IMG/VR virus record: IMGVR_UViG_3300011258_001167
Span: 1-35,850 of that record
DNA length: 35,850 nucleotides
Origin: a virus
Direction: 5' to 3' (one strand)
Below the pieces are notes generated by a model, which ran no database searches, had not been told where the DNA came from, and was given only the letters and a program-made list of their open reading frames with translations. The translations under genes and the position numbers were made by a program. Shown here piece after piece: positions 4,739 to 17,597 of the stretch; the stretch's first letter is position 1, and each line of letters opens with the position of its first letter.

Positions 4739-5013
4739 GTGATAAACCCTACTCAGTAAAGACTTTAGCCGAAAGATGGGATTGTTCTAAGCAGAAGATT
4801 CACAACATGATAAAGGCGAAAGAGATTAAAAACACGTTCCCGGTGGGAAATATGCTTAGAATTCCGGTATGGGAAATTGAAAGGATCGAGTCATGTGGAA
4901 TAGAACACCAGAACTCTACAGAGGAAAATACTACGCCAGAAGCGGCACGGGGCAGAAAACTAGGAGAAAATCACTTGGAACGTCAACCTTGGAGTTGGCA
5001 CGGCAGCGCCTAG
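4735..5013 (+). CDS. Excisionase-like helix-turn-helix protein
   Basis: A 92-aa protein. Residues about 6-50 form a MerR/excisionase-type winged HTH: YSVKTLAERWDCSKQKIHNMI, then a turn and IPVWEIERIE. The remaining about 40 residues are low in structure and are encoded out of frame with the integrase start, which lies inside this gene (121-bp overlap). Xis genes commonly precede and overlap int. Xis would bend attachment-site DNA and steer the integrase toward excision. It could also be a regulator of int; position favours Xis. Confidence 0.75.
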   Translation: MSDKPYSVKTLAERWDCSKQKIHNMIKAKEIKNTFPVGNMLRIPVWEIERIESCGIEHQNSTEENTTPEAARGRKLGENHLERQPWSWHGSA

Positions 5014-5876
5014 AAGATTTAATCTTATTTGATGATTCAAACCCGATTTTAATTAAGGATATGTGGGCGGAATACGCCAAAGAGAAGGAAAATAAATATC
5101 GAGATTTAATGTATATGTGGCGCTCATTAGAGCCAACATTCGGGCATTTGCGCCCAGACCAAGTAACGCGGCAGAAATGCAAAGAATTTAGTAAAGAGAA
5201 AAACATGAAGGCAGGAACAATCATAAGACAGCTAGGAGCGCTCAGGGCAGCCCTTAAATGGAATGACCCTAACACCCCCGCTATATTCTGGTTTCCCCCT
5301 TCTCCGCCCCCCAGAGATCGTTATTTAACACGATTAGAGGTGCAGGAATTGCTTGAGGTGTGCGAGCAGCCCCATATCAGGTTATTTATTACTCTCGCTA
5401 TTTGTACGGCAGCGCGTAAATCCGCCCTGCTAGAGCTTACATGGGATAATGTGGACTTTGAGAGAGGGCAGATTAATCTCGGTATTGGTGCATCAAATAA
5501 AAACCGCGCAATCGTGCCTATGAACTCAACAGCGGAAAGAGCCTTGGAAGAGGCTTATAGCTACCGCCTTACTGACAATGTAATCGAGTATAACGGACGC
5601 GCCATTAAAGATGTGAAGCGGGGTTTTGCGAGATGTGTAAAGGCGGCTGGTCTTACGGGCGATATAAGCCCTCACACCCTTCGTCATACCTCGGCAGTGT
5701 GGATGGCAGAGGATAGAGTGCCAATGTCTGAGATTGCTCAATATTTAGGCCATACAAATACTCGCGTTACGGAAAGAACATACGCCCGTTATTCACCTGA
5801 TTTTCTTAAAGGCGCAGCTAATTCTTTGGAATTGGGTTCAATTGCACCCAAAAATGAGGGTCTTATAAAATGCTAA
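4893..5876 (+). CDS. int: Tyrosine recombinase (phage integrase)
   Basis: A 327-aa integrase. The N-terminal about 45 residues form an arm-binding-type domain (YYARSGTG...RRKSLGTS). A SAM-like core-binding domain covers about 50-125 and the catalytic domain about 143-310. Catalytic residues are visible: Arg175 (TAARKS), Lys203, the box HTLRH at 261-265, His287 in LGH, and the nucleophile Tyr297 in the TERTYARY segment. The start at 4893 gives the expected N-terminal domain. The gene ends 24 bp before the tRNA-Asp attachment core, the normal int-attP arrangement. Confidence 0.95.
   Translation: MWNRTPELYRGKYYARSGTGQKTRRKSLGTSTLELARQRLEDLILFDDSNPILIKDMWAEYAKEKENKYRDLMYMWRSLEPTFGHLRPDQVTRQKCKEFSKEKNMKAGTIIRQLGALRAALKWNDPNTPAIFWFPPSPPPRDRYLTRLEVQELLEVCEQPHIRLFITLAICTAARKSALLELTWDNVDFERGQINLGIGASNKNRAIVPMNSTAERALEEAYSYRLTDNVIEYNGRAIKDVKRGFARCVKAAGLTGDISPHTLRHTSAVWMAEDRVPMSEIAQYLGHTNTRVTERTYARYSPDFLKGAANSLELGSIAPKNEGLIKC
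5832..5849 (+). repeat. 18-bp direct repeat flanking attP core (first copy; second at 6039-6056)
   Basis: TTGGGTTCAATTGCACCC occurs at 5832-5849, within the 3' end of int, and identically at 6039-6056. The two copies lie on opposite sides of the attP core at 5901-5945. The inner 16 bases are also an imperfect palindrome. Placement either side of the core is what arm-type integrase or Xis binding sites look like. The element also resembles a tRNA T-arm. Confidence 0.6.
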
Positions 5877-10028: not shown

Positions 10029-12551
10029 TTAAGTAAGAGTTAGGCTATGACGCGCTTCTAATAGCCTCATAACCCTCAAAGCATCCTCTTCGTACAAAAA
10101 CTCATTCCCCGCATACACGCCCGCTATTTCTGTTCCCGCACCCACTCTGCCAAAGCTAAAGCTGTAACCACCAATCGAAGGCGGCAAACTATAAGCATGT
10201 GCGGCGCTGTTTCTCATAAACACTTTCTTTGTAAAAGTTGGCGTGATGGAATTAGAATAAACTCTTCCTATGCCCGTATCGTGGCTATAAGTGAACAAAC
10301 AAGCGTACCACGTGTTTGTCGTTGCGGTGAAGCTGGTATCTTTAAATAAATTCCCCAACCCTCCGGCTGTAATAGATGGCCTGAAACGATTACCGTTCAT
10401 CTCCATAGTCGTTAAGCCAAAGGAATATGGATACCCGCTTATGCCAGATGTAAAGCGTATTAAGCACCCGTGCCAGAAATTACTGCCCCCGTCCTGTTTG
10501 TGCAGTGTTGAGAGAAAATCACTCGCACCGGGAAGAGTTGTCATTTCTAACACCTCAGTACCGTCAAACTCAAAATACCCGTTAGCATTATAATTCGGGT
10601 CATATGCATCCACCGCGTCATGCGTTGTTCCTAGGTGGTAATTATACGCCGATCCGCCCGATACAAGGTTGGTAAGGCTTTGACCACTACCCGGATAACA
10701 GGCGCTTTGAGAGGCATCTATGTCAATCACACAGCTTGAAGGCATATTAAACGCCCCGGCTTCTACGTTAATCGTATAGCTGTTTACAACGCTCACACCG
10801 CGCACAGTTGAGGTAATCTCTAAAGCGTGACTTGATTTAGTGGCGTTGTTTACCGTTGCGCTAAGGCTGAGTTTGTTTCCTGAGATTGAGAATTTGCTAT
10901 CAGGATCACTTGTAATTGTATGAACATCCCGCGCATTATCGCTGATTATCTCCGCGATTGTCTCACCCGTAGCGGTGTTTTCGTTAACCGTTGTGTTGGT
11001 TAGTGTTATACGGTTTGTGAGAACATCCCTTCGAACCAATCCGCTAGAGCCATAAGCAAACAAGCGCATATAGCCCGTTTTGGTATCAGAGGATTTATCA
11101 ACCGCATCGTAATGGGTATCAGAAGATCGCTCTTGGAATATAAAATCAAGCTCGGCATCGCCGTCTTTAACGTGCATAGGCGCGGACAGGCTGTGTTCGG
11201 ATGAATCGGCCTCTTGGATAAGGGACGCGCTTCCCCACGTTCCCCCTGCCCCGCTATTGCTGCGAACAACCTTATAAACATCACCGTGACGATAATCATC
11301 CGGCGTTGCCTCATCAATATAGGTCACTTCAATCTGGTCAGAACCATTTATCTTAATAGAATAATTGTCGTTTCTATGTCCCAAAACCGCGCCGGATATG
11401 CTCTCAGGGGTTTGCCAAGATGTACCATTATGCCAAACATGCTTTAACTGGTATGAGCCTTGAGAGACACCTGTGCCGGATTTTCCTACATTAGCGCCAT
11501 CTGTGAATATAATATGGGGATTGCCAGAGCTATCGAAAGCAAGGCGTGGAAGGTTTCCAACATTCGAGCCAGTGTGTTCGAATATTCGATAACTGGCGTT
11601 GCTGGTTGTGAGATTAATCGGCAGAGAAGCCGCGGCTGTGGAAGTGCTATCAGCGAAGTTTCTTATCTCATTCGCCACCGGGTCATACACATAGTAATAA
11701 ATATGCTTGCGCTCATCATCACCAAAATCCGCTCTTGTACCCAAGAAATGAACCTCACCGCCTTGAAGGATATGAGAACCAAGATAAAAACGGCTATCAT
11801 AATCCAAATCAACGCCGACAACGGGGCTGGCCCACGTCACCACACCATCCGTTATATCTGTTGAGATATAGTAATCATAATACATGCGGTAATTCCCGCC
11901 CGTACCGCCCGCCTCGTCTGTTCTTCTGGCGCCAACATATATATTGCCATCGCTCAATAGAACCGGAGAAGGATACGTCAAAGCCGCGTTCAAAGTCGCT
12001 TGTGGCCTCCACCGCGTGGCATCCCTTGCTAGAGACGTTGTAGCATGTTGCACAGCATTACCGTGACCACCAAAGAACACATGCACGTAACCATCCGAAT
12101 CCATAATAATTGATGGAACGCCGTGATCGTCATTTGTTAATTCTGAATACCCTACAATATACGGACCCTCCCAAGCGCTACTCGCATGATTGTATAAGGT
12201 CATATAACATGTTCGCTCATCACCATCCCAGCCCTCATAAGCAATCCACGTTTTATCGCCCGTACTGTCATAGATAGCGTTTGGCTGCGTTGCCATATAC
12301 CAAGAGGCTGTCCCCCCGCCATCGGAGAAATAAGCCTGTCCGCTTGGTGAGGCGGAAGATGTTAGTGTCGCGTCCTGCCCTGCAAGCGTAAACGCGCCGT
12401 AGTCTGCCGTTATATCAATATCGTTTCCAGCAAGAACTGCGTCTTGCCCCCGCACAGAAAAATAACCTGTATTGGCGTTTATACCGTCTTCTGGCTCTCT
12501 CGGCCCGCTATTCGCGTTTCCCAGCCCTAATAACCCCAACCCTAAATTCAT
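10029..12551 (-). CDS. Large adhesin / tail-fibre protein with BNR propeller and LamG domains
   Basis: An 840-aa protein. It starts MNLGLGLLGLGN, the same anchor as the next gene, followed by two short GxFxVxGQDAxL repeats. Residues about 70-510 look like a BNR_4-type beta-propeller (blades with DDHGVPSIIMDSDGYVHVFFGGH). About 525-600 resembles a cadherin-like Ig domain (TVNENTATGETIAEI). The last about 230 residues are LamG/ConA-like. BNR_4 domains occur in polysaccharide lyases, so surface-glycan binding or cleavage is plausible. No catalytic residues could be assigned. It overlaps its paralogue by ATGA. Confidence 0.75.
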   Translation of the reverse strand: MNLGLGLLGLGNANSGPREPEDGINANTGYFSVRGQDAVLAGNDIDITADYGAFTLAGQDATLTSSASPSGQAYFSDGGGTASWYMATQPNAIYDSTGDKTWIAYEGWDGDERTCYMTLYNHASSAWEGPYIVGYSELTNDDHGVPSIIMDSDGYVHVFFGGHGNAVQHATTSLARDATRWRPQATLNAALTYPSPVLLSDGNIYVGARRTDEAGGTGGNYRMYYDYYISTDITDGVVTWASPVVGVDLDYDSRFYLGSHILQGGEVHFLGTRADFGDDERKHIYYYVYDPVANEIRNFADSTSTAAASLPINLTTSNASYRIFEHTGSNVGNLPRLAFDSSGNPHIIFTDGANVGKSGTGVSQGSYQLKHVWHNGTSWQTPESISGAVLGHRNDNYSIKINGSDQIEVTYIDEATPDDYRHGDVYKVVRSNSGAGGTWGSASLIQEADSSEHSLSAPMHVKDGDAELDFIFQERSSDTHYDAVDKSSDTKTGYMRLFAYGSSGLVRRDVLTNRITLTNTTVNENTATGETIAEIISDNARDVHTITSDPDSKFSISGNKLSLSATVNNATKSSHALEITSTVRGVSVVNSYTINVEAGAFNMPSSCVIDIDASQSACYPGSGQSLTNLVSGGSAYNYHLGTTHDAVDAYDPNYNANGYFEFDGTEVLEMTTLPGASDFLSTLHKQDGGSNFWHGCLIRFTSGISGYPYSFGLTTMEMNGNRFRPSITAGGLGNLFKDTSFTATTNTWYACLFTYSHDTGIGRVYSNSITPTFTKKVFMRNSAAHAYSLPPSIGGYSFSFGRVGAGTEIAGVYAGNEFLYEEDALRVMRLLEARHSLTLT

Positions 12552-13495
12552 GTGATATCAGTCCAAGTAATGCCCCATCGGTCATCAAGATATTGCCCCA
12601 CATCATTTTTCTCAGAGGTTGATAATACAGCGCTATAAACAAGCACCTCAGCAATAGCGCCCACAAGCGGAGAGGTGTAGTTTGTGCTGCCAGAGCCGCC
12701 AGTGCGAAGCCCTATAAGCGTTCTTTCATCTGCCAAAGACAGGGTATTTGTGCCGCCTGATACGCCGTCTTGTGTCTGCGCTACGCCGTTTGCCCATAAA
12801 GCAACATCCGCATAGGTATCCGAAGCCGCATGTTCCCAGAGCGTAATTGTCGGTGTACTGGTAGAGGCGTTTGTAAAGCCTCTAAAGCCATTATTAAAGC
12901 GATATGACCTATCGCCATCATTTACCGAGATAACCGTGCCGCCGCCCGAAGCTGTCGCACCAAAGTGAACCAGAGCGTGCTGGCTTGATGCGCTTGAATC
13001 AACCTCAGAAACCACAAAGATTGTTATATTGGGGCTGCCTGTAAACCCAAGCCCGTCCGATCCTTCTAATCGGCGCTGACCTGAGCCTGTGAAGTCCATA
13101 ACATTTACAGAATTAATTGTTCTTGTACCCGTAGACGGTCTATCAGTGCCGGACGCAGTAACATGCCTTGCGTTTCCGCTTTCATCATTCCACTGGTCAA
13201 CAAGCCCGCTTGTATCGGCGATTGTGCCGTCACCTTTAAGCCATAATTCAAGGCCGGAGATATCATCAGGAGAAAACGCAGCCCCGCCGCCAGAATAGGT
13301 CAGTGTCGCGTCTTGACCGGAAAGCGTATAAGAGCCTTGCGCTGCATCTAGGGCGGTATGAGTTTGCGTTAGAATTGCTTCTTGGCCCGAAACGGTAAAA
13401 AAGCCTGCGCCTGCGATTATTGAGCCTTCTGGCTCACTCGCCCCGCCGCCTGTACCTGAATTACCAAGCCCTAGAAGGCTTAAACCCAGATTCAT
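12548..13495 (-). CDS. Adhesin / tail-fibre paralogue with LamG domain
   Basis: A 315-aa protein. N-terminal MNLGLSLLGLGN and two GxFxVxGQ(D/E)AxLT repeats (to about residue 68) match the N-terminus of the 840-aa adhesin, which suggests both dock on the same virion site. The rest (about 75-310) is a LamG/concanavalin-like jelly roll: ISGLELWLKGDG, WNDESGNARH, then LVGAIAEVLVYSAVLS and a final helix DVGQYLDDRWG. It lacks the propeller. It is coupled to neighbours by 4-bp overlaps on both sides. Confidence 0.75.
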   Translation of the reverse strand: MNLGLSLLGLGNSGTGGGASEPEGSIIAGAGFFTVSGQEAILTQTHTALDAAQGSYTLSGQDATLTYSGGGAAFSPDDISGLELWLKGDGTIADTSGLVDQWNDESGNARHVTASGTDRPSTGTRTINSVNVMDFTGSGQRRLEGSDGLGFTGSPNITIFVVSEVDSSASSQHALVHFGATASGGGTVISVNDGDRSYRFNNGFRGFTNASTSTPTITLWEHAASDTYADVALWANGVAQTQDGVSGGTNTLSLADERTLIGLRTGGSGSTNYTSPLVGAIAEVLVYSAVLSTSEKNDVGQYLDDRWGITWTDIT

Positions 13496-13924: not shown

Positions 13925-14197
13925 CTATGTTTTGTTTAGGCTTCTTTTGGCGATACGAAGCTTGTCTCTTGTGTGTTTGTAGTCTTTTCCAAGCTCAACG
14001 TGCGTGGGGCATATTCCGCCCTCTGCTTCGTCTGCGGCGCTGTGAAGGGTTTCGCTATCGTATTGAATAACAGGCGGCAACACCAAACTGGTTGATTTCG
14101 CAGTGTCAAAACGTCCCCCTCCGCAAGCTGTCAATGTAAGCAGCGTTACTAGGGCGAATAACCGCGTCCTGCTCTTTCCTGATTTCAATATTGGCAT
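13925..14197 (-). CDS. Outer-membrane spanin subunit (Rz1-like lipoprotein)
   Basis: A 90-aa protein with a basic N-terminus, a hydrophobic stretch and the lipobox L22-T23-A24-C25, followed by GGG. The mature part would be a 66-residue periplasmic chain. Its start lies inside the preceding gene in another reading frame (92-bp overlap), as in lambda Rz/Rz1. Together the two would fuse inner and outer membranes at the last step of lysis. The overlap and lipobox are seen; the pairing is inferred. Confidence 0.75.
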   Translation of the reverse strand: MPILKSGKSRTRLFALVTLLTLTACGGGRFDTAKSTSLVLPPVIQYDSETLHSAADEAEGGICPTHVELGKDYKHTRDKLRIAKRSLNKT

Positions 14198-14339
14198 CTA
14201 TAGCCTCCTGTTTTTGTTGGTTGCACTTTAAAAGCTCTTTGTCAGCCCCCGCGCTATAAGCCGCGCCGCCAATGAATACCGACCAACCTATGAAAGCCAT
14301 GCCGATGCCGAGTATTAACCACGGGTTTAATCCAAACAT
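14106..14339 (-). CDS. Inner-membrane spanin subunit (Rz-like)
   Basis: A 77-aa protein with one N-terminal transmembrane segment (about residues 7-31) and a charged helical periplasmic tail (KCNQQKQEAIDANIEIRKEQDAV). This is short for Rz (typically over 100 aa), but the topology, position after the endolysin and overlap with a lipoprotein gene fit an i-spanin. Its ATG directly follows the endolysin stop. Confidence 0.65.
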   Translation of the reverse strand: MFGLNPWLILGIGMAFIGWSVFIGGAAYSAGADKELLKCNQQKQEAIDANIEIRKEQDAVIRPSNAAYIDSLRRGTF

Positions 14340-14837
14340 TTATATTTCCTCCGTAAGACCTTCTAGGCAAAGTCGTTTTTCCTCATCGCGCCTGCGTATT
14401 AAGCCCCGCAATTTAATACCCTTTGCGAAAACCCATCTTGATAGCTCTTCACAAGCAGCGCGGGTTTGCCCCTCATTCATCAAGCGGCGCAATGTTGATT
14501 TCTTGAAATTCTCTATACCCACGTTATACGTGAAGCTTGTAAGCGCAGCCCTGCGCGTATCAGGCATTGGAACAAATATAAAATCATCAACGGCTTTGAG
14601 GTAGATTTTAAGCTCTTCGTTTAAGAGAGCGTCACACTCTTCTTTGGTCATTGCCTGCCCAAGCTCAACGCCTTTTGTGCTGCCATAGCAGATTGTTGGT
14701 ATACCTACGGGATCAAGATACGCCTCGATGCGTAAGCCCTCCCATTTTCCAATAAACGGCGTTGCTATTGCCGCCACTCCGGCTGTGCCAATAACGCCCG
14801 CAGCCACTACGCCAACGGCTCTTGTTCTAAAATTCAT
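14340..14837 (-). CDS. SAR endolysin, lysozyme family GH24
   Basis: A 165-aa lambdoid R/T4-type muramidase. The catalytic signature E-8-D-5-T is complete: Glu33 (KWEG), Asp42 (YLD), Thr48 (IPT), followed by CYG. Residues about 8-29 form a weakly hydrophobic Gly/Ala-rich N-terminal segment typical of a signal-arrest-release endolysin, exported by Sec and held in the membrane until the proton gradient collapses. NVGIENFKKSTLRRLMN and GIKLRGLIRRRDEEKRLC are conserved GH24 elements. It overlaps the receiver gene by ATGA. Confidence 0.9.
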   Translation of the reverse strand: MNFRTRAVGVVAAGVIGTAGVAAIATPFIGKWEGLRIEAYLDPVGIPTICYGSTKGVELGQAMTKEECDALLNEELKIYLKAVDDFIFVPMPDTRRAALTSFTYNVGIENFKKSTLRRLMNEGQTRAACEELSRWVFAKGIKLRGLIRRRDEEKRLCLEGLTEEI

Positions 14838-15193
14838 TCGCCAATTCCTTTCGCAATATCCGCCACGTATTCCATAAGCGCCTCATTGTCTTTATCTTTT
14901 TCAAAAAGCTCGGACACACCTAAATTACGGTAAAAATCTAAATTGACTTTACCGAGACGGCGAACGCACCCGCCTGTGTAAATAACAAATGGGCAATCTT
15001 CTTTATTTGCGGAGCGCTTTAAATTATCGTCTGTCCTATCCGGGACTTGAAAGTCAGTGATAACAATATCGTGCGATATTTTTGATTCGAGATACGCTTG
15101 GTGCGACCCGTACAAAACAATCGAATATTGCTTAAGCATTCTTTCAAAAATCATGGCATCGACTGTATCGTCTTCGATGTATCCTATAATCAT
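14834..15193 (-). CDS. Stand-alone CheY-like response-regulator receiver domain
   Basis: A 119-aa protein made only of a receiver domain. Conserved residues are in place: acidic pair Asp8-Asp9 (YIEDD), phospho-acceptor Asp47 in DIVITDFQVP, Thr73 (FVIYTGG) and Lys99 (LFEKDKDN). The Pro usually following the Lys is Asp here. ATG at 15193 was chosen over a longer frame from 15262: it forms an ATGA overlap with the preceding stop and has AGAAGG upstream. There is no output domain. It lies between a holin-like gene and the endolysin, so it is part of the lysis cassette. A histidine-kinase partner is not encoded nearby. Confidence 0.8.
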   Translation of the reverse strand: MIIGYIEDDTVDAMIFERMLKQYSIVLYGSHQAYLESKISHDIVITDFQVPDRTDDNLKRSANKEDCPFVIYTGGCVRRLGKVNLDFYRNLGVSELFEKDKDNEALMEYVADIAKGIGE

Positions 15194-15531
15194 CCTAAAA
15201 CCTTCTTTAGCAATGCCGCGAAAATCGCTGCTACCAATGTTCCCAATACACCCCAAGCCCACATTATATTATTCCGAAGTCCTTCAAGCGGTGTGAGCCG
15301 CTTTTCCAAAACCTCCTTTAACTTGGCAAGCTCCACCTCTTGCTGCTTGCCGAAACTTTCCTGCCTTTCAAGCCTTCCCTCTATCGCTGTTTGCCCTAGC
15401 TCCATGCCGATTAGAGCCTTGTTTACAACCTTTAAATCTCTTCCCTGATCCCGCTGGTTTACAAGAACTGCGTCAATACTGCTTTGCAGCCTTCCAATCG
15501 CGCTTGATATTTGATCGATATCGCCGCTCAT
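15190..15531 (-). CDS. Coiled-coil protein with C-terminal membrane segment (XhlA/holin-like)
   Basis: A 113-aa protein. Residues about 3-80 form an extended coiled coil (IDQISSAIGRLQSSIDAVL, then VELAKLKEVLEKRLTPLE). Residues about 90-108 are a hydrophobic segment (WAWGVLGTLVAAIFAALL) ending KKVLG. This matches XhlA-like lysis-accessory or holin-associated proteins. It starts right after the stop of the multi-TM gene and overlaps the receiver gene by ATGA. A holin-accessory role is inferred from position and topology. Confidence 0.7.
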   Translation of the reverse strand: MSGDIDQISSAIGRLQSSIDAVLVNQRDQGRDLKVVNKALIGMELGQTAIEGRLERQESFGKQQEVELAKLKEVLEKRLTPLEGLRNNIMWAWGVLGTLVAAIFAALLKKVLG

Positions 15532-16134
15532 TTATGAGAGCCATAGTGCCGTTGGCACTCCAAATACCAGCGCTCCTATAATTGGCTCAGCTAAAACCCA
15601 GCCATCGCGCTTGAAAAGCATCCATGATAATTGCTGTCCTACGAATACAGCCGGAACAAACAAGAGAGACGCTACAATAAAACCAGCGTAGCCAGTCGCT
15701 AAAGCCATGAACGCCCCCATCCATACACCGCGCTGCAATCCTTTTTTAATGCCGTATTCACGACCAAAGCTTTTTTCAGCCTTAATATACGCTCCCCATG
15801 CTTTGCCAATGCGCCCTATTGCCCCGTGTTCTTCGCCCATAGAGGGCGCTACAGCAAGCAACCAAGCTGCTGCGAACAATGTAGCGGGAAGGAATTGAAA
15901 CGCATACTCAGGCACGCCGTATAGCCCGCCATTGGCGCTTATAGTTTCAGCCGTTGCAAAAAGCGCGAATACAAACACAAGCGCCGTTGAAATAACTTTG
16001 CCATCAAGCAAGCGCTCGGTGATTTTGTTTTTCCCTCTAATGCGCTCCCACCAAGGGAATATAGAAGGCCCGCTCCCGCCTTTAAGAGCGTAGAACAAAC
16101 CGAATAGTGCGGTGATTATAGTAAATTGGATCAT
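15532..16134 (-). CDS. Multi-pass membrane protein of the lysis cassette
   Basis: About 200 aa with some five hydrophobic segments (about residues 3-18, 47-63, 80-98, 143-170 and 180-198) and a conserved-looking loop SMGEEHGAIGRIGKAWGAY. I recall similar uncharacterised proteins before lysis genes in other proteobacterial phages. The start at 16134 (TAATG overlap with the fibre stop, AAGGA 8 bases upstream) is preferred to 16158. It may be the holin, but it is larger than most holins; the function is unproven. Confidence 0.65.
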   Translation of the reverse strand: MIQFTIITALFGLFYALKGGSGPSIFPWWERIRGKNKITERLLDGKVISTALVFVFALFATAETISANGGLYGVPEYAFQFLPATLFAAAWLLAVAPSMGEEHGAIGRIGKAWGAYIKAEKSFGREYGIKKGLQRGVWMGAFMALATGYAGFIVASLLFVPAVFVGQQLSWMLFKRDGWVLAEPIIGALVFGVPTALWLS

Positions 16135-17597
16135 TATGCTGTCCTTGCGTCTTTCCATCCGGCTGTGGTTACAACCAATGTTTCGCCGTTATTAAGGCGG
16201 ATACCGACTTGCGCGGATGTGTTGGTGTGAATGAATAATTGGCTCGGCGATAAATCCCCAAAATTCCCAAGAGGCGACCCGCCTGTGCTTGGCGTTTGCG
16301 CTGTTACATCAAGAGGAAATGCATACCCCTCAACATTGGCCCCTGTAGAATAGGCGTTCAATTCAGCCTCAGTTACATATCCCGTAGGAGTAGTCAGCGT
16401 CACAGTTGTTGTCACGCCGCTTGATACAGCGCCGTTTTGATTGGCAGAAGGAATTGTCGACCATCTTGTATATAGGCCACCACCAGCCGTTTCTCTCGAA
16501 ACAAACGAAACAAGATTTGAAGACCCGTCCGTTAAATTAGAGTGTACGCGGCGGTATTTTGTATAACCGCTAGGGATGTTTGCCGCACTTATAGAGGTAT
16601 CCCAGCCTATATCAATGCTGCCGTCACTATCTTTTTCAATAATAAATAAATGATACCATGTGGATGTGGCTACGCTCCCGCTAAACAATCCCCCGTTACC
16701 CGTACCCGCCGCCCATGTTGCATCTATGCGCTTAGTCATAGCAGAAGGAAGCACCAAATCAGAGGCATATGTACTATCAGCGATAGAGCCAGCCGATACC
16801 GTCACGTCATGGTCGGCATCCGCCGCCAAGCTTGGCACTAACCCCCGTGTTAAAGAAAGAACCGAAGCCCATTGTGGATTGGCACTCGCGCCTTGTGTTT
16901 GCAGGACTTGCCCTTGTGTACCAGCAACCAGCCTAGAAGGTGCGCCGGACGCGCCGTAATAAAGCACATCCCCCTGCACACCGTCTGCCATTTTTACCAA
17001 CGTAACAGCGTTATTTTCTATATCATTGGTATCGATAGTACCCTTGTCGAAAGCATACCACTCATCACCATCACAAGAGATTGCCGCCCAATTCCCAGCG
17101 CTCACCGTTAATGTGGAAGCGCCGTTTATTGTCTCAGACGCATCAGGGTCTATCGTAACCGTTGCCACGCCATCATTATAAACCCAAAACTCAAAGCCAT
17201 CAGATGCATCAGCAACCGGCAATAGTGATAAAGTTGTAGTCCCCGTTACATACAATCTAGCTCTATCGTATAATTCTGTTATCGAGGTGTTTGCCGAGAT
17301 ATCATATGAAACAATCCCGCCGGTTGACTGCCCGGCAATATCATCAACCTCTTTGATTAAAACATCACTCGAATTATAAAGCGCGAATTTGTAATTGCCC
17401 GTTGCCAGCCATATCTCCGCACGCCCAGAAGCGTCAAGGATAACAGGGTTCGCGTTTGCCGTTGTTTCATCCGAGCTTGTATAAGTGGCTTTTGGCGTAC
17501 TTGTACCCGCCTCATAGGTGTAAATCTTTCCACCAGCCAAAGGGTTTCCATCGTCATCCAATTCCTGAATGAACGCATAAGGTGATAATGTTGCCAT
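16134..17597 (-). CDS. Tail fibre / tail-spike protein
   Basis: A 487-aa protein. The N-terminal about 90 residues, beginning with LSPYAFIQELDDDGNPLAGGKIYTY and continuing AGTSTPKATYTSS...NPVILDASGRAEIWL, are the common podovirus fibre head-binding domain. A repetitive beta-rich shaft follows, with TLSLLP and GDVLYYGASGAPSRLVAG (a motif common in phage fibres). The C-terminal 230 residues are a variable tip. It occupies the slot after the ejection proteins where P22-like phages place their tailspike. Confidence 0.85.
   Translation of the reverse strand: MATLSPYAFIQELDDDGNPLAGGKIYTYEAGTSTPKATYTSSDETTANANPVILDASGRAEIWLATGNYKFALYNSSDVLIKEVDDIAGQSTGGIVSYDISANTSITELYDRARLYVTGTTTLSLLPVADASDGFEFWVYNDGVATVTIDPDASETINGASTLTVSAGNWAAISCDGDEWYAFDKGTIDTNDIENNAVTLVKMADGVQGDVLYYGASGAPSRLVAGTQGQVLQTQGASANPQWASVLSLTRGLVPSLAADADHDVTVSAGSIADSTYASDLVLPSAMTKRIDATWAAGTGNGGLFSGSVATSTWYHLFIIEKDSDGSIDIGWDTSISAANIPSGYTKYRRVHSNLTDGSSNLVSFVSRETAGGGLYTRWSTIPSANQNGAVSSGVTTTVTLTTPTGYVTEAELNAYSTGANVEGYAFPLDVTAQTPSTGGSPLGNFGDLSPSQLFIHTNTSAQVGIRLNNGETLVVTTAGWKDARTA

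Follow-up and report, generated by a model that had tools for sequence, protein, structure and literature searches.

Does a receiver domain encoded within a phage lysis operon connect the virus to a phosphorelay of its host, and is lysis itself the process concerned? The question is raised by a gene for a protein of 119 residues lying in the lysis cassette of the virus record IMGVR_UViG_3300011258_001167, whose 35,850 bases (positions 1 to 35,850) were analysed as a whole and are referred to below as the window. Phages rewire the transcription and metabolism of their hosts; to our knowledge, phage proteins entering a host phosphorelay by means of a bare receiver are almost unstudied. An earlier note, made from the letters of the window, had described the protein as a stand-alone receiver and suggested that the timing of lysis, or a late host response, is tied to a host phosphorelay.

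Judging by its terminase, its homologues of the P22-type portal and stabilisation proteins and its tyrosine integrase, the virus is a temperate P22-like podovirus. The best match of its replication helicase is found in a Bradyrhizobium phage and its integrase has relatives in Rhizobium phages; the structural proteins resemble those of phages of many gammaproteobacteria. The helicase and the integrase, together with the type of receiver described below, make an alphaproteobacterial host plausible.

The receiver gene and its neighbours

On the minus strand, the tail gene is followed in order by the genes of a 208-aa membrane protein, a 113-aa coiled-coil protein, the 119-aa receiver and a GH24 endolysin, and by two small overlapping spanin-like genes (Table 1).

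Table 1. Features of the lysis cassette, with their positions in the window and the basis of each assignment
Feature	Position	Strand	Basis
90-aa lipoprotein overlapping the 77-aa gene, candidate outer-membrane spanin	13925..14197	-	lipobox LTAC; L007 homologue
77-aa one-TM protein, candidate inner-membrane spanin	14106..14339	-	position and topology only
GH24 endolysin, signal-arrest-release-like N terminus	14340..14837	-	Pfam, PHROGs, motif
ATGA overlap, receiver gene stop and endolysin start	14834..14837	-	sequence
Stand-alone receiver protein, 119 aa, divergent FATGUY-type	14834..15193	-	ORF, profiles, alignment, predicted fold
ATGA overlap, coiled-coil/TM gene stop and receiver gene start	15190..15193	-	sequence
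113-aa coiled-coil protein, one C-terminal TM segment, XhlA-like, candidate holin or holin accessory	15190..15531	-	weak PHROG 1193 and Pfam XhlA matches
208-aa multi-spanning membrane protein, possible holin	15532..16158	-	hydrophobic segments read from sequence; just before the coiled-coil gene

The 119-aa gene is real. It is joined to both neighbours by ATGA overlaps, as the earlier note had stated in proposing translational coupling between a holin-like coiled-coil/TM gene and a SAR endolysin. Shine-Dalgarno-like sequences precede the start codons of the receiver (GAAGG, 15205-15201, minus strand) and of the endolysin (AGGA, 14849-14846, minus strand), each located 7-8 nt upstream. The codon usage of the receiver frame is like that of the other phage genes (0.19 bits per codon), the other five frames scoring from -0.3 to -1.1. 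A promoter scan gave no excess over shuffled sequences. The operon position shows late co-expression only.

The endolysin is readily classified (Pfam Phage_lysozyme, 1.2e-41; PHROG 7 endolysin, 1e-59). Its E-x8-D-x5-T catalytic spacing is intact and its N terminus, as read from the sequence, is rich in Ala and Gly and weakly hydrophobic. Possessing the GH24 domain, the catalytic triad and such an N terminus, it has the characters of a SAR GH24 enzyme, and signal-arrest-release is predicted. The 113-aa coiled-coil protein weakly resembles PHROG 1193 hemolysin (E 1e-3) and Pfam XhlA (E 0.59); no relatives of it were found in viral contigs or phages, and related viruses carry similar short genes at the same place. 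Neither the 208-aa membrane protein nor the 77-aa one-TM protein has a family match in Pfam or PHROGs. A homologue of the 90-aa candidate spanin stands after the endolysin in a related viral locus (L007).

Assignment of the 119-residue protein to the receiver family

A Pfam scan of the protein returned nothing up to E = 10, hence no match to the PF00072 (Response_reg) family, and a search with PF00072 across the window genome was equally empty. The PHROGs scan produced only an unrelated match (E = 0.21), and the cREC profile (PF20274) had no match in the protein at E <= 10. The earlier note had named the lack of a significant receiver match as the result that would refute its claim; Pfam and PHROGs literally give that result, but it is reversed by a PDB search, by closer profiles, by hhalign and by the predicted fold. 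The PDB sequence search (E <= 10) retrieved just two chains, CtrA and FixJ. Both are receivers, and their alignment to the phage protein is in register across D47 as far as T73. Over 72,556 plasmid records, most tblastn matches were to response regulators, led by a Microvirga sequence (E = 0.006) whose own nearest solved relative is SdrG (1.1e-11), a member of the FATGUY group. FATGUY single-domain regulators are alphaproteobacterial proteins that possess no output domain and serve as phosphoryl shuttles of the general stress response.

Profiles were ranked against a background of about 20,400 sequences, made of 20,000 shuffles and the ORFs of the window itself. A profile of 30 ordinary receivers gave the phage protein 7.3 bits, about rank 19, while a profile of 18 FATGUY receivers placed it first with 20.8 bits, the best shuffle reaching 8.8. 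Two Microvirga sequences in the FATGUY set had been found with the query itself and were dropped in a leave-out test in order to avoid circularity; the phage protein still ranked first with each of the three resulting profiles (16.7, 14.4 and 14.7 bits). In hhalign comparisons the probability was 88.9% against the FATGUY set (E 2.4e-6) and 57.6% against the ordinary set, and none of 300 shuffles reached the score in either case. A profile-profile comparison (A2-A4) was set aside because A2 contains FATGUY rows. Generic receiver profiles are insufficient for this protein, since the ordinary profile ranks it only about nineteenth, and the FATGUY profiles are decisive. The phage protein is, on this evidence, a divergent stand-alone receiver domain beyond the reach of Pfam, its homology being detected from closer profiles. 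Its gene occurs once in the collections searched; viral contigs, phages, plasmids and bacterial genomes yielded no close homologue. One match (L002) was rejected as a chance alignment inside HtpG.

The structure prediction recommended in the earlier note points in the same direction. With the single sequence AlphaFold2 gave no confident model (pLDDT 36). When ten receiver rows were supplied, pLDDT rose to 76 and pTM to 0.73, with the strand and helix order of receivers, (beta-alpha)5; this model is biased toward the fold of the receiver alignment supplied. Its best matches in the PDB are receivers (Z up to 13.9, rmsd 2.5, 115 residues aligned). SdrG is missing among the fold matches listed, an absence that is not counted as evidence. 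The model supports a (beta-alpha)5 receiver fold and does not prove it.

Active site and comparison with known receivers

An alignment of the phage protein with the two sets, 30 ordinary and 18 FATGUY receivers, shows every one of the five active-site positions to be retained: the acidic pair, the phosphoacceptor D47, T73 and K99. The last three agree with the earlier reading, whereas the acidic pair is Glu7/Asp8 by alignment and not Asp8/Asp9. With these residues kept, the protein is apparently a phosphorylatable receiver.

Four characters separate the two groups of receivers, and in each of them the phage protein sides with FATGUY. The combination of P at T-5 and F at T-4 is found in 16/18 FATGUY and 0/30 ordinary receivers, Glu at the first acidic site in 18/18 and 4/30, and a D-to-T spacing of exactly 26 in 18/18 and 0/30, respectively. 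Conversely, Tyr or Phe at K-3 occurs in none of the 18 FATGUY and in 28 of the 30 ordinary receivers, the phage protein having L96 at this position. The published FATGUY motif is PFXFATG[G/Y], suggested to serve Rec-to-DHp/Hpt transfer (PMC9981736). The phage counterpart, P68-F69-V-I-Y-T73-G74-G75 (PFVIYTGG, or PF-x3-TGG), agrees with it in P, F, T, G and G and reads I-Y for the inner F-A; Rhizobiales members have PFIVYTGA or PFIIYSGY, so that V-Y or I-Y occupies the inner positions in several of them.

Other features depart from the group. The T73-to-K99 spacing is 26, versus 19-21 in FATGUY and 22 in ordinary receivers, the range 19-21 being an observation from the compared set and not a published defining feature. 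The E7-to-D47 spacing is 40 versus 44-46 in the comparison, alpha2 is short and atypical, and Asp comes after K99, where Pro is usual. The T-K and E-D spacings could indicate an altered active-site geometry. An alpha4-like helix is predicted in the phage protein because of the longer T-to-K stretch; Sma0114 reportedly has none. As the 26-residue T-K stretch and the short alpha2 do not fit a typical member, the protein is, from its sequence, designated as FATGUY-type, that is divergent and atypical rather than standard. This assignment is what is new here: it points to candidate partners and opens the function to direct testing.

The best characterized comparisons are SdrG of Sphingomonas melonis (PDB 5IEB, 5IEJ) and MrrA of Caulobacter, FATGUY single-domain response regulators that consist, as the phage protein does, of a receiver only. 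The three have in common PFx3TG[G/Y], the Glu-Asp acidic pair, the D-to-T spacing of 26 and the absence of Tyr/Phe at K-3. The phage protein differs by being phage-encoded within a lysis operon, and by an identity to FATGUY members of only about 15-25%, in addition to the shorter alpha2, the T-to-K spacing and Lys-Asp for Lys-Pro. The best cellular matches are stand-alone receivers of Microvirga plasmids (L023, L024), whose PFIIYSGY and PFVIYSGY are near the phage PFVIYTGG; they are cellular, their identity to the phage protein is 25%, and one of them (L023) is detected by Pfam (43.9 bits) whereas the phage protein is not.

The earlier note rightly called phage-encoded receivers rare, though precedents exist: CheY-like stand-alone receivers are already known from the Alteromonas phages V22 (gp30) and A5 (gp11) (PMC7289586, PMC10579305). 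Like the phage protein studied here, they are stand-alone and encoded in the late region of a tailed phage. By contrast, V22 gp30 belongs to the ordinary PF00072 receivers (79 bits), is extended at its C terminus, lacks the FATGUY motif and is encoded in a host-recognition module; its identity to our protein is 15%, with no BLAST-level similarity. In V22 (L191:1-1199; MN877442.1 24959-26198) a papain-like amidase and a hypothetical, possibly coiled-coil protein precede the receiver, an order of hydrolase, coiled coil and receiver that loosely mirrors the window cassette, the receiver standing two genes after the amidase. In a 59.9-kb viral contig (IMGVR_UViG_3300005613_004609, hereafter L184; 2572-3814, plus strand) an endolysin-like gene is followed 8 nt later by a PF00072 receiver and then by an overlapping cupin gene. 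As in the window, a stand-alone receiver lies next to an endolysin-like gene; the hydrolase is of another type (weak PHROG 894 match), the next gene encodes a cupin and the receiver is 18% identical. Pfam gives no match for the endolysin-like gene of L184, and its PHROG match is weak (E 0.0024). Three different receivers near hydrolase-type genes are suggestive and do not make a pattern.

Possible roles of the receiver

The explanation that we tentatively favor, and regard as quite possible, is that of a FATGUY-type phosphoryl acceptor, made late, that taps or drains a host relay of the HWE/HisKA2 type. The gene would have been acquired from a bacterium with HWE/HisKA2 phosphorelays and inserted in the late lysis operon, and its product, a predicted phosphorylatable FATGUY single-domain receiver, would be made late in infection together with holin and endolysin. 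Having no output domain, it would act solely by phosphoryl exchange: Asp47 would take phosphate from host histidine kinases or histidine phosphotransferases, as the earlier note had proposed and as the FATGUY features indicate, and the phosphate would be either drained, as in a sink, or passed on. The latter is the behavior of the cellular relatives. Several HWE/HisKA2 kinases donate phosphate to MrrA, which hands it to others as a promiscuous hub (PMC5964349), and SdrG hands phosphate to PhyR via PhyT (PMC5898713); each of the two is a promiscuous phosphoryl hub or an intermediate in relays of HWE/HisKA2 kinases (PMC5964349, PMC5898713). A general-stress or envelope phosphorelay of the host may in this manner be muted or redirected while virions are completed. 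The place in the lysis cassette would set when the receiver is made, and contact with lysis proteins would not be required. Since the cellular relatives are hubs of the alphaproteobacterial general stress response, the FATGUY-type receiver constitutes a specific lead: if the phage protein drains or feeds such a relay late in infection, it would give the virus a direct handle on the stress response, and would put to the test whether host signalling can be built into lysis operons, as it already is for gene transfer agents.

The gene may also be an accessory passenger, a host receiver gene that settled in a late-operon spot, where it benefits the prophage or the state of the host, or does little, with no specific role in lysis or infection. 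We consider this somewhat unlikely. Its distribution speaks for such a passenger. The earlier note proposed a search for receivers beside GH24 endolysins in other P22-like prophages. In none of 99 related viral loci, retrieved via the stabilisation protein or the tail N terminus, did the two profiles or a search with the protein itself find a receiver. In L007, L021, L089 and L090, the closest relatives for which the cassette is visible, the endolysin follows shortly after a small membrane or coiled-coil gene, and the lysis region contains no receiver; another (L088), with a different candidate hydrolase, has none in the region either. Because related podoviruses with intact lysis cassettes do not have the gene, it is interpreted as an accessory insertion, and because none of the 99 loci encodes a receiver, lysis in this lineage appears able to do without one. 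The GC content of the gene (40%, against 47% in each of the two neighbours) suggests recent insertion, and its single occurrence is in keeping with a passenger. Against it stand the intact ORF, flanked at either end by a tuned ATGA overlap and a Shine-Dalgarno site, and the conservation of all five receiver positions despite great divergence elsewhere, which together argue for a maintained function.

The suggestion that lysis timing is tied to a host phosphorelay holds up in part: involvement of a relay is the likeliest role, whereas the link to lysis is positional and the cassettes of relatives are built without a receiver. A direct role of the receiver in lysis timing is possible and unsupported so far. 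As a phosphorelay-gated timer, the protein would bind the coiled-coil/TM protein or the endolysin in a phosphorylation-dependent manner, advancing or delaying lysis according to host stress; this appears unlikely. It is consistent with the translational coupling on both sides, with the receiver 8 nt after the endolysin-like gene of L184 and with that of V22 two genes after its amidase. There is also a precedent in the gene transfer agent of Rhodobacter capsulatus, where endolysin expression and release are under the control of the DivL/CckA/ChpT-CtrA relay (PMC6363796), a host phosphorelay thus governing the release of phage-like particles; that relay, however, is host-encoded and acts through CtrA on transcription, with no particle-encoded receiver. 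Operon position alone is no proof of interaction, and the weak endolysin call of L184 and the host-recognition module of V22 reduce the weight of these two cases. In its strictest form, a dedicated checkpoint in which the kinase-phosphorylated Asp47 form binds the coiled-coil/TM partner encoded on the same message, or the endolysin, so that burst time is set by the host stress phosphorelay, the idea is quite improbable. If true, the receivers that follow hydrolase-type genes in L184 and V22 would represent separate origins of the same strategy.

It is similarly improbable that the protein is a pseudo-receiver that keeps the fold and works without phosphorylation, for example as a decoy that binds or blocks a kinase or phosphotransferase. 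The indels around the active site, the long T-K segment, K99-Asp100 in place of Lys-Pro and the very high divergence with no Pfam match would suit such a function; by definition, however, a pseudo-receiver lacks one or more of the five active-site residues (PMC12632262), none of which is missing here. A chance resemblance, or an unrelated alpha/beta protein, is very improbable, for in spite of the absent Pfam match, the low single-sequence pLDDT and the biased confident model, the protein ranks first above 20,000 shuffles with four FATGUY profiles, no shuffle reaches its hhalign score and the diagnostic residues are in register.

FATGUY receivers as phage genes were also sought elsewhere. Two FATGUY queries against 50,697 phage records found no FATGUY receiver, just weak matches in short unannotated fragments. 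Candidates in viral contigs (L168-L183) were rejected: three (L168, L174, L183) lie beside histidine-kinase or other host-like genes, and most others are near the ends of prophage contigs, so that these candidates are probably host genes. In L169-L173 and L175-L181, a nearly identical FATGUY-like receiver is found at about 4977-5357 (plus strand), within about 2 kb of the contig end, which suggests a recurrent prophage boundary marked by a host receiver gene.

The window also encodes, on the minus strand downstream of the lysis genes, an 840-aa protein (10029-12551) that matches a BNR repeat (PF15892) and may be associated with the tail and bind or hydrolyse glycans. It adjoins a 315-aa protein (both within 10029-13495, minus strand), and the N termini of the two are nearly alike (MNLGLGLLGLGN and MNLGLSLLGLGN), resembling a shared virion-attachment or assembly tag. 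A similar start, MRLGLGLG, is also present in L088 at 11642.
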